Part shown: positions 8,290-52,408 of the stretch, in pieces
How positions within the stretch are numbered: the stretch's first letter is position 1
How the letters are laid out: every line of letters begins with the position of its first letter
Source of the DNA: Chryseobacterium sp. MA9
Lineage (GTDB): Bacteria; Bacteroidota; Bacteroidia; Flavobacteriales; Weeksellaceae
DNA: 64,000 nucleotides
Assembly: GCF_024399315.1 (NCBI RefSeq)
Contig: NZ_CP075170.1
Span: 744,001-808,000, forward strand
Direction: 5' to 3'
Notes under the pieces: generated by a model
Seen by the model: the letters and a program-made list of their open reading frames with translations, nothing else
Databases searched by the model: none
Told to the model about the DNA's origin: nothing
Position numbers and translations under genes: made by a program

Positions 8290-8297
8290 TATATTTG
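8290..8297 (+). promoter_or_regulatory. Promoter -7 element of the aspartokinase leader
   Basis: TATATTTG matches TAnnTTTG exactly and is followed after 16 bp by the ATG of the 18-codon leader ORF. A -33 TTTG at standard spacing is not evident, but the element is well placed to make a leader RNA of about 160 nt before the aspartokinase start. Confidence 0.55.
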
Positions 8298-8313
8298 CCC
8301 AGCAAAAAAGAAA

Positions 8314-8370
8314 ATGATATTATCTAACTTAAAAAAAGGAAAGAAACAGTACTTACGTCGAACGTCGTGA
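8314..8370 (+). CDS. Putative leader peptide of the aspartokinase attenuator
   Basis: An 18-codon ORF encodes MILSNLKKGKKQYLRRTS and ends in TGA. Four of five consecutive codons (7, 8, 10, 11) are lysine, and an Arg-Arg-Thr-Ser end follows. It lies between a promoter element and an intrinsic terminator that directly precedes an aspartokinase gene. Lysine and threonine are end products of that pathway, so ribosome stalling at Lys (or Thr) codons could decide termination. The GAAAATGA around its start can pair with TCATTTTC at 8372-8379, giving a possible alternative structure. Translation is not shown. Confidence 0.5.
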   Translation: MILSNLKKGKKQYLRRTS

Positions 8371-8405
8371 GTCATTTTCCTATTGGTTAGAAACTAAATA
8401 CACAG

Positions 8406-8437
8406 GAGCTTGTCATCACGACAAGCTCTTTTTTTTT
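8406..8437 (+). terminator. Attenuator terminator upstream of aspartokinase
   Basis: A 9-bp perfect GC-containing stem (GAGCTTGTC / GACAAGCTC) with a 5-nt loop ATCAC is followed by nine T. It ends 27 bp before the aspartokinase ATG and does not follow any long gene, so it most plausibly acts as a conditional terminator in the leader. Confidence 0.8.
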
Positions 8438-8464
8438 GAAAAAATTTTAACAATTTAATTTATT

Positions 8465-9784
8465 ATGAAAGTATTGAAATTTGGTGGGACTTCGGTAGGA
8501 AGCCCGGAAAGGATTGAACAGTTATTACCCATTATCAGATCTCAGGCTTCGGACAAACATCTGGTTGTTTTATCAGCCGTTTCCGGTACCACAAATGATT
8601 TGGTGAAATTATCGGAGCTGTATGAGAACAAAGATATTGAAGGAGCTTACAAACATATTGATGTACTATATGAAAAATATAAAAAATTTGTAAATGAATT
8701 ATTTAAGACTGAAGGAGGGATTCTGGAAGCTTTATCTTTTATTGGTAAAATTTTTGATCTTTTTTATCAGTTCAAAAATAAAAACTTCACTTCCAGTGCG
8801 GAACGTATTATTCTTGCACAAGGTGAAATTATTTCAACAACTCTGTTTCACTTATATTTAAAGGAAAAAGAAATATCGTCTGTATTACTATCAGCGTTAG
8901 ACTTTATGTTGATTGACGAAGATAAAGAACCCGATATTGACTACATCAGAAAACAGGCGGGTCTTGAAATTGCAAAATATCAGGAAGAAACCCTATTTAT
9001 TACTCAAGGATATATATGCAGAAATGCTCAAGGTGAAATTGATAATCTGCAAAGGGGAGGCTCTGATTACACAGCTTCATTACTGGGAGCAGCATTGCAG
9101 GTAGAAGAAATCCAAATCTGGACGGATATTGATGGATTCCATAATAATGATCCGAGATATGTTCAGAATACAAAATCTATTGCCAGACTCAGTTTTGATG
9201 AAGCGGCAGAACTATCATACTTTGGAGCCAAAATCCTCCATCCACAAAGCGTTTTCCCTGCAAGAAAATATAATGTTCCTGTAAGATTATTAGATACAAT
9301 GAATCCTGCTGCTGCCGGAACGTTGATCTCAGGAGAAACAACCAATCAAAATCAGATTGTAGCAATTGCCGCTAAGGATGGGATCACGGCAATTCGTATT
9401 CAATCTTCCCGTATGCTGATGGCTTATGGCTTTTTGAGAAAGGTTTTTGAAATTTTTGAACGGTATAAAACACCTATAGATATGATTACTACTTCTGAAG
9501 TAGCGGTATCGCTTACAATTGACCAAACGGATAATCTTTCTGAAATTATAAGAGAATTGAACTCCTTTTCAGCAGTTGAAATTGACAGTGAACAGTCGAT
9601 CATATGCATTGTAGGAGACTTCAGAAAAAATAATCATGGATATGCAACCATTGTCTCGGAAGCGTTAAAACATATTCCAATACGAATGATTTCCTATGGA
9701 GGAAGTGAGAATAATATTTCATTATTAGTTCCATCTGTATACAAGGTAGAGGCCTTAAGATCCCTGCATAACAGATTGTTTTAG
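8465..9784 (+). CDS. lysC: Aspartate kinase (monofunctional)
   Basis: A 439-residue protein beginning MKVLKFGGTSVGSPERIEQL; KFGGTSVGS is the amino-acid kinase nucleotide/substrate loop. Other family blocks are RGGSDYTASLLGAAL, EIQIWTDIDGFHNNDPR and LSYFGAKILHPQ. The C-terminal 140 residues form ACT regulatory domains (TPIDMITTSEVAVSLTID), where end-product amino acids usually bind. It phosphorylates aspartate, the first step towards lysine, diaminopimelate, threonine and methionine. There is no homoserine dehydrogenase fusion; the protein stops after the ACT region. It is preceded by a probable attenuator and followed by its own terminator. The gene symbol is by function; paralogues may exist elsewhere. 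Confidence 0.93.
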   Translation: MKVLKFGGTSVGSPERIEQLLPIIRSQASDKHLVVLSAVSGTTNDLVKLSELYENKDIEGAYKHIDVLYEKYKKFVNELFKTEGGILEALSFIGKIFDLFYQFKNKNFTSSAERIILAQGEIISTTLFHLYLKEKEISSVLLSALDFMLIDEDKEPDIDYIRKQAGLEIAKYQEETLFITQGYICRNAQGEIDNLQRGGSDYTASLLGAALQVEEIQIWTDIDGFHNNDPRYVQNTKSIARLSFDEAAELSYFGAKILHPQSVFPARKYNVPVRLLDTMNPAAAGTLISGETTNQNQIVAIAAKDGITAIRIQSSRMLMAYGFLRKVFEIFERYKTPIDMITTSEVAVSLTIDQTDNLSEIIRELNSFSAVEIDSEQSIICIVGDFRKNNHGYATIVSEALKHIPIRMISYGGSENNISLLVPSVYKVEALRSLHNRLF

Positions 9785-9822: not shown

Positions 9823-9846
9823 AAAACCGCTTTTAAAGGCGGTTTT
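9823..9846 (+). terminator. Intrinsic terminator after aspartokinase
   Basis: AAAACCGC pairs with GCGGTTTT around an 8-nt loop, followed by ATTTATT. It lies 38 bp downstream of the aspartokinase stop. Confidence 0.75.
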
Positions 9847-50614: not shown

Positions 50615-52342
50615 ATGGGAAAATTAGCAACTATTGATATCATCATATTCCTGATCTATTTCGTAGTGGTAGCTTCCTACGGATTATGGATTTATAAAAA
50701 GAAAAAGTCTGAATCTACAGGAAGTAAAGATTATTTCCTTGCCGAAGGGTCATTGACCTGGTGGGCTATCGGAGCCAGCTTAATTGCTTCTAATATTTCT
50801 GCTGAACAGTTTATCGGAATGAGCGGTGAAGGTTTCTTTGTCGGAATTGCCGTTGCCGCCTATGAATGGATTGCTGCCCTTGCGCTGATCATTATTGCGG
50901 TCTGGTTTATTCCGATCTATCTTAAGAATAAGATCTATACTATGCCTCAGTTTCTGGAGAGAAGGTATAACAAATCTGTTTCATTGATCATGGCAGTGTT
51001 CTGGCTGTTTCTGTATGTTATCGTGAATCTTACTTCCATTCTTTATCTTGGAGCTCTTGCTATTGATACTTTGTTGGGAGGAGAACACCTTCACGGTATT
51101 ATGATCGCCCTTTTGCTTATGGCTCTTCTGATCGGTCTTGGAGGGATGAAAGTGATAGGATATACAGACGTTATCCAGGTAGCAGTGCTTATTATCGGAG
51201 GCTTTGCAACGGTTTATATGGCTTTACAGATTGTGGACCAGAGAATCAACGGAGCTGCAGTAGGTAATGCTCTGGCTGGTTTCAATACCCTGATCAATGA
51301 GGCTCCGCAGCACTTTAAGCTGATTCTTCAAAAACCAACAACTACGACCACTACTTTGGCAATGCCTCAAAACCTTGATGTACAGAAGTATGTCGTGTTA
51401 CCAGGTCTGGCCATGTATTTTGCAGGTCAGTGGATTGTTAACCTGAACTATTGGGGCTGTAATCAGTACATCACCCAAAGAGCTTTGGGGGCAGATCTGA
51501 AAACAGCAAGAACGGGAATTTTATTTGCCGGTTTTCTGAAGCTATTCATGCCTGTGATTGTTATGCTTCCGGGAATTGCAGCGTATGTATTATATTCCAA
51601 AGGACACCTTCCGGGATTCAACGGAGTGAAAGACGGAGCCTACTCTGCAATATTAGGATTCTTACCAGTAGGATTGAAAGGATTGGCCATTGCAGCGTTG
51701 ACAGCAGCGATTGTGGCTTCACTGGCTGGAAAAGTAAACAGTATTTCAACCATTTTTACGCTGGATATCTATAAAAAATACCTTAAAACAGACGCCACCG
51801 AAATTCAGATGGTGAGAACAGGCCGCTGGGTTATTATTATTGCGATGATGGTAGCATTAGCCTTTACCTGGACAGACGTTTTGGGGATTGGTGGAGAAGG
51901 AGGCTTTACATTTATCCAGAAATACACAGGTTTTATCAGTCCCGGAGTGTTTGCCATGTTCCTTCTGGGAATGTTCTGGAAAAGAACAACAGGTACTGCT
52001 GCTTTGGTAGGAGTGATTTTAGGTTTCGTCCTGGCCATTTTCTTCAACAGTTTTGCTGTGGGTATTTTCGGAAAAGAAACCTGGATGTATACGGCATTCA
52101 CTTATGAAAAGCTGGAGAATGGAGTGGTTCATACCATTACAGAGATTCCTTTCCTGATCAATATGGGATGGTCCTTTTTTATCACAATAATTGCCATGAT
52201 ACTCATCAGTCTTGCGGGTCCTAAAGTAAATCCTAAAGCCTTTGCCATTGATGCAACGATGTTTAAAGTGGACAACAGAACTTTAGTTTTGATCGTGATG
52301 ACACTGCTTTTACTGACTGCCTTATATGTAAGGTTTTGGTAG
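50615..52342 (+). CDS. Sodium/sugar symporter (SSS family)
   Basis: A 575-residue membrane protein with about 14 segments. SSS-family blocks: FLAEGSLTWWAIGASLIASNISAEQFIGMSG split here as LTWWAIGASLIASNISAEQF, IYTMPQFLERRYNKSVS, and the LAALTAAIVASLAGKVNS-type segment in the middle (LAIAALTAAIVASLAGKVNS). It resembles SGLT-type carriers and would bring arabinose, or another monosaccharide of the locus, in with sodium. It ends the ara cluster 3 bp after the mutarotase gene, followed by a strong terminator. Confidence 0.92.
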   Translation: MGKLATIDIIIFLIYFVVVASYGLWIYKKKKSESTGSKDYFLAEGSLTWWAIGASLIASNISAEQFIGMSGEGFFVGIAVAAYEWIAALALIIIAVWFIPIYLKNKIYTMPQFLERRYNKSVSLIMAVFWLFLYVIVNLTSILYLGALAIDTLLGGEHLHGIMIALLLMALLIGLGGMKVIGYTDVIQVAVLIIGGFATVYMALQIVDQRINGAAVGNALAGFNTLINEAPQHFKLILQKPTTTTTTLAMPQNLDVQKYVVLPGLAMYFAGQWIVNLNYWGCNQYITQRALGADLKTARTGILFAGFLKLFMPVIVMLPGIAAYVLYSKGHLPGFNGVKDGAYSAILGFLPVGLKGLAIAALTAAIVASLAGKVNSISTIFTLDIYKKYLKTDATEIQMVRTGRWVIIIAMMVALAFTWTDVLGIGGEGGFTFIQKYTGFISPGVFAMFLLGMFWKRTTGTAALVGVILGFVLAIFFNSFAVGIFGKETWMYTAFTYEKLENGVVHTITEIPFLINMGWSFFITIIAMILISLAGPKVNPKAFAIDATMFKVDNRTLVLIVMTLLLLTALYVRFW

Positions 52343-52372
52343 ATTGAACCGTGTACTGAAACATGAAATAAT

Positions 52373-52408
52373 AAAAAATAGGATGCTGAAAAGCATCCTA
52401 TTTTTTTT
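52373..52408. terminator. Strong intrinsic terminator after the ara cluster
   Basis: AAAAAATAGGATGCT pairs with AGCATCCTATTTTTT around a GAAA tetraloop, with a T-run on either strand, so it can stop both the symporter transcript and the convergent GH5 transcript. Confidence 0.9.

Follow-up and report, generated by a model that had tools for sequence, protein, structure and literature searches.

A putative lysine-responsive transcription attenuator upstream of an accessory aspartokinase gene in Chryseobacterium sp. MA9, related in its RNA body to the Bacteroid-trp leader

The leader that precedes a monofunctional aspartokinase gene in Chryseobacterium sp. MA9 is, in all likelihood, a ribosome-mediated, lysine-responsive transcription attenuator controlling this accessory gene. 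The initial annotation of this DNA had already interpreted the leader as an attenuator, and this reading is supported by the conservation of a short ORF with its Lys codons and of the terminator that follows it, by compensatory changes in the terminator and in the other helices, and by folding calculations, in which mutually exclusive structures form according to the position of the ribosome. The chassis of the leader is common with that of Trp leaders.

All elements listed here lie on the plus strand, starting at position 8290 of the window (the whole analyzed stretch of 64,000 nucleotides), with the leader extending to the aspartokinase start codon at 8465:

8290-8297, plus strand: promoter element of the Bacteroidota -7 type, TATATTTG, as read from the sequence
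8314-8370, plus strand: leader ORF of 18 codons from ATG (8314) to the TGA stop (8370), encoding MILSNLKKGKKQYLRRTS, present in 44/44 distinct leaders
8332-8346, plus strand: putative sensor codons 7-11, KKGKK (AAA AAA GGA AAG AAA), assigned from Lys-codon conservation
8323-8357, plus strand: segment A, the 5' side of the protector hairpin, with TCTAAC (8323-8328), AGGAAA (8337-8342) and CTTACG (8352-8357)
8365-8391, plus strand: segment B, the 3' side of the protector and 5' side of the antiterminator, with TCGTGA (8365-8370), TTTTCCT (8375-8381) and GTTAGA (8386-8391)
8404-8422, plus strand: segment C, AGGAGCTTGTCATCACGAC, the 3' side of the antiterminator and the 5' arm plus loop of the terminator
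8406-8437, plus strand: intrinsic terminator (C:D), GAGCTTGTC (8406-8414), loop ATCAC, GACAAGCTC (8420-8428) and a T-run to 8437
8465-9784, plus strand: the regulated gene, a monofunctional aspartokinase of 439 aa with AA_kinase and ACT domains

Every coordinate of the initial annotation that we checked (promoter, ORF, hairpin segments, terminator and aspartokinase ATG) was correct. In particular, the 9-bp intrinsic terminator, with its T-run ending 27 nt before the aspartokinase ATG, was confirmed at 8406-8437, where a terminator scan also recovered it. CTTACG (8352-8357) can pair with CGTGAG (8366-8371), and in the antiterminator segment C pairs through AGGAG with TTCCT and through TCACGA (8416-8421) with TCGTGA. 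The transcription start is expected a few nucleotides past TATATTTG, and a -7-type promoter element is found 18-33 nt upstream of the leader ATG in nearly all relatives.

Among candidate stretches, 558 encode relatives of the window aspartokinase, and the best 80 of these 558 loci were retained. Leaders of 37 of them (L004-L039 and L079), together with that of the window's own genome, make up a 38-sequence alignment, which further genomes extend to 44 distinct leaders from Chryseobacterium, Elizabethkingia, Paenimyroides, Myroides and a few Flavobacterium. The ORF has 18 codons and a TGA stop in all 44, starting with ATG in 43 and GTG in one. Lys occupies codons 8, 10 and 11 in 44/44 leaders and codon 7 in 42/44, and AAA and AAG are exchanged synonymously at all four positions. 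In the 38-sequence alignment no indel occurs inside the ORF, and the spacer on the 5' side of the terminator varies in length. The expectation of the initial annotation that an alignment across genera would reveal conserved Lys codons and compensatory changes in the stems is thus borne out; the opposite outcome, a terminator retained without the ORF or its Lys codons, is not what we see, since all three are kept together in 44/44 leaders. A model search detected no leader before the gene in 42 other loci encoding aspartokinase relatives, from Sphingobacteriaceae and kin (L043, with too short an upstream region, was omitted from this search).

The RNA itself has the design of a ribosome-mediated attenuator, with an A:B protector, a B:C antiterminator and a C:D terminator. 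The leader folds with a z-score of -4.96 relative to 200 dinucleotide shuffles. In the 38-sequence alignment the terminator is 100% paired, and 5 of its 9 pairs exhibit compensatory changes on both sides. The protector comprises three helices, paired in 85-99.6% of the alignment cells, and its outer and middle helices contain pairs changed on both sides; the outer helix, in which 5/6 pairs have changed on both sides, is paired in just 85% of the cells because its register shifts in Myroides. In the antiterminator, 96.7% of the cells are paired, and the TTCCT:AGGAG helix accounts for all 14 both-side changes. The A:B and B:C helices are retained above controls. The TCGTGA:TCACGA helix is almost invariant and draws its support from conservation, not covariation; for the same reason, swapping cognate for non-cognate B:C duplexes left little to contrast. 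The stop codon of the ORF sits within this TCGTGA, and Trp relatives often keep the motif even where it has ceased to serve as the stop codon or the reading frame differs, therefore it is an RNA element.

The initial annotation had also pointed to complementarity between GAAAATGA at the ORF start (8310-8317) and TCATTTTC (8372-8379). This complementarity is real in the window leader and recurs in 30/44 leaders (7-8 of 8 pairs), but it is reduced to 2-5 pairs in 13 Myroides and Flavobacterium leaders, and we rejected the helix as a general switch because it is lineage-specific. In general, TTTTCCT pairs either in A:B, with AGGAAA within the Lys codons, or in B:C, with AGGAG from the terminator arm.

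For folding with a modelled ribosome, its 3' edge was placed 12 nt past the A-site codon (PMC4833913), a footprint assumed from other bacteria, and B:C pairs were counted in transcripts folded up to the end of segment C for 44 Lys and 64 Trp leaders. With this footprint, a ribosome at Lys-11 covers CTTACG and one at the stop codon covers segment B. A stall at codon 11 yields a mean of 15.5 expected B:C pairs, and none of the 44 Lys or 64 Trp leaders has fewer than 8, whereas a ribosome at the stop codon leaves a mean of only 1.2-1.5 (1.2 over the 44 Lys leaders), and in the absence of a ribosome the Lys leaders mostly form A:B, with a mean of 4.6 B:C pairs. Shuffling segment B lowers the B:C count under the stall to 7.7 (Lys) and 6.3 (Trp), the native value being higher in every leader. 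Thus, besides a conserved short ORF in which codons for the end product recur and an intrinsic terminator between this ORF and the gene, the leader possesses, by computation, a mutually exclusive antiterminator that depends on ribosome position. Once the 3' arm is present, the complete terminator is preferred at equilibrium even with a stalled ribosome, therefore the switch must be kinetic. Classic attenuators likewise switch kinetically. In partial folds B:C forms for stalls anywhere up to about codon 13, therefore the folds by themselves do not point to lysine; what supports the proposed assignment of lysine is the conservation of the codons, the target gene and the analogy with the Trp leaders.

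We infer that the ORF is translated, that the ribosome stalls on it with lysine as the signal, and that termination takes place in the cell. Transcription would start right after TATATTTG and a ribosome would load on the 18-codon ORF. With ample Lys-tRNA it would reach the stop codon and cover segment B (TCGTGAG...TTTTCCT), allowing the C:D terminator to form and transcription to end near 8437. With scarce Lys-tRNA it would stall at Lys-10/11, covering segment A up to CTTACG, and the free segment B would pair with C (TCGTGA:TCACGA and TTCCT:AGGAG) before the 3' arm of the terminator is made, so that RNA polymerase would continue into the aspartokinase gene. Without translation A:B would form, and termination would be the default.

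We built a covariance model from the Lys leaders only and searched 396 genomes of the order with it. Apart from eight strong Lys matches in the genus, it returned many leaders from a second family of this order (E 7e-13 and weaker); a search across the phylum (395 genomes) gave matches at E <= 1e-4 only in the window's genus and in that family. The latter leaders contain ORFs mostly of 18 codons, like MKITMNNTWWWKNLRQTS, with TGG-TGG-TGG at codons 9-11, and precede trpE, as named from the N-terminal sequence and the Rfam match. All five that were tested are recognized by Rfam as RF01692, Bacteroid-trp (Weinberg 2010, PMC2864571), with 50-75 bits. The window leader attains 22.6 bits with RF01692, below the gathering score of 49; an RF01692 search finds several Lys leaders, the best seen at 46.9 bits, also under the threshold, as well as Trp leaders that precede a trpB-like gene in Myroides and in one Flavobacterium. 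The 64 Trp leaders were selected by WWW, so that their codons constitute no independent test. Both leader types, Lys-type before the aspartokinase gene and Trp-type before trpB, occur together in seven genomes. When the two leaders of a genome are aligned from CTTACG onward, scores reach 19.5-50, compared with shuffled maxima of 2-14; their 5' (sensor) halves are much less alike than their bodies. In the MA9 genome the Lys-leader model found no second good copy; a match on the opposite strand of the window (8398-8474) is the terminator read backwards, and one at 52326-52408 (E 0.039) is merely an ordinary terminator.

The Lys leader shares with Bacteroid-trp the RNA body CTTACGTC...TCGTGA, the TGTCATCACGACA terminator, a usually 18-codon ORF with sensor codons ending at 11, and the placement of the terminator before a biosynthetic gene. 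It differs in having KKGKK instead of WWW, an aspartokinase gene instead of trpE or trpB, and a score below gathering. Score, codons and target gene all place it outside RF01692, but its RNA body is homologous. From sequence comparison, it is best read as a lysine-specific sibling of Bacteroid-trp, in which the sensor codons would have been exchanged on a common chassis, and by analogy it very likely works like Bacteroid-trp. In the Trp family the sensor codons agree with the target gene, which calibrates the reading of Lys codons before an aspartokinase gene as lysine sensing. In the Myroides Trp leaders before trpB (L244, L245, L247, L249) the CTTACGTC...TCGTGAG element is read in a shifted frame as part of a longer peptide, therefore it is an RNA rather than a peptide element. 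In Myroides and a Flavobacterium (L258, L259, L260), trpE is preceded by a further WWW leader whose terminator is unrelated, hence two Trp attenuators, of trpE and of trpB, coexist in one genome.

Could the leader sense something other than lysine? L14, R15 and S18 are as strongly conserved as Lys in the 44 leaders, and a stall anywhere up to about codon 13 gives antitermination in the folds, so a response to Arg, Leu, Gln/Tyr or Ser, or to translation in general, might be considered. However, RNA helices account for CTTACG and TCG, which are read in another frame in the Myroides trpB leaders, and the LR...S end of the peptide is conserved through the RNA helix and not for sensing; moreover, several Trp leaders replace LR, codons 12, 13, 16 and 17 vary, and Lys alone is repeated at the position where the Trp relatives have WWW. 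We therefore regard this alternative as improbable. Likewise, of the two sensing options raised in the initial annotation, stalling at Lys codons is supported, while the Arg/Thr/Ser codons near the end of the ORF are not upheld as the sensor.

A structured, strongly folding leader with a terminator before a lysine-pathway gene would also be expected of a metabolite-binding riboswitch, either the lysine L-box or an undescribed one, to which the ORF would be incidental. Yet at Rfam gathering scores the leader matches neither the lysine riboswitch nor any other family (only weak hits occur below them), an aptamer needs no indel-free 18-codon ORF with synonymous Lys exchange, and the homologous Trp leaders differ in codons, not in an aptamer; a riboswitch is thus very unlikely. 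Exceedingly unlikely is a terminator whose sole role is to end an upstream transcript or to release a stable trans-acting small RNA or peptide. Conservation of the leader is indeed high, and terminated leaders can act in trans, as described in PMC7298713 for rnTrpL/peTrpL of Sinorhizobium, but the aspartokinase gene is accompanied by the promoter, ORF and terminator wherever it occurs in the genus (18/18 genomes), while the upstream DNA differs between species. A role in trans could exist in addition to the cis control by attenuation that we favor.

Where aspartokinase is under lysine control, riboswitches or feedback inhibition are the usual explanation, and the L-box precedes lysC in other bacteria. 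The Lys leader has in common with the L-box the control of aspartokinase by lysine through a terminator, but it is predicted to sense via the ribosome and not via an aptamer. The window leader matches neither the lysine riboswitch nor the T-box covariance model, and over the whole window Rfam reports only a tRNA at gathering scores. With the classic enterobacterial attenuators (trp, his, thr, leu, phe) it shares a short ORF with regulatory codons and the protector, antiterminator and terminator segments; no sequence relation to them was found, and here the promoter is of the Bacteroidota type and the putative signal is lysine. Leader genes have also been suggested for other lysine- or aspartate-related genes, namely the predicted Lys-containing leader of lysQ in Lactococcus (PMC4833913) and SEP5 of Sinorhizobium, a predicted leader with Thr/Lys codons, mainly Thr (PMC10117765), but these organisms and genes are unrelated to the Chryseobacterium leader. 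Attenuation is less novel in Bacteroidota than the initial annotation assumed in calling it little described: it is already recorded as RF01692 (PMC2864571), Bacteroid-Trp RNA is mentioned upstream of the trp operon in Flavobacterium psychrophilum (PMC6414381), and PMC9723704 gives clues of leader-peptide attenuation before amino-acid operons of that species, naming structured elements ahead of pheA and hisG; its main text refers to neither lysine nor aspartokinase. No description of a lysine leader of the KKGKK type was found in open-access main texts, an earlier mention being possible.

The aspartokinase gene has its own terminator at 9823-9846, according to the scan, and is therefore probably monocistronic. 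It is accessory in Chryseobacterium, occurring in 18/118 genomes, and all 18 possess the leader (15 by a strict pattern, three read individually). In the aspartokinase tree Chryseobacterium, Elizabethkingia and Paenimyroides group together, apart from Myroides. Since Paenimyroides belongs to the same family as Myroides, this grouping suggests that the gene and its leader may have been transferred horizontally together. MA9 encodes two other aspartokinase homologues, one of which is a fused ThrA with a Thr-rich leader. This aspartokinase-homoserine dehydrogenase gene (leader just upstream of 2531569, outside the window) is followed by a thrB-like gene, and its leader, with the ORF MNLLRNISDISALKLPISGISSVSTFTTTTTTP and a hairpin with a T-run, is a probable Thr/Ile attenuator of an architecture unlike that of the aspartokinase leader. 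The trpE gene of MA9 (near 4938100, minus strand, outside the window) is preceded by a leader, MFKMSNNIWWWLSNSSSGLKVLSCC, in which codons 9-11 encode WWW but the chassis has diverged (terminator loop GGATACC), also unlike the aspartokinase leader.

We consider it probable that flavobacterial attenuators are modular, with one chassis duplicated and furnished with different codon cassettes (WWW or KKGKK) and target genes, here as a lysine attenuator travelling with an accessory aspartokinase. A Lys leader on the chassis of a Trp leader would mean that an attenuator can change its amino acid by swapping a few codons, and the genomes with both leader types may supply natural pairs in which codon-programmed switches of Bacteroidota can be tested and engineered.
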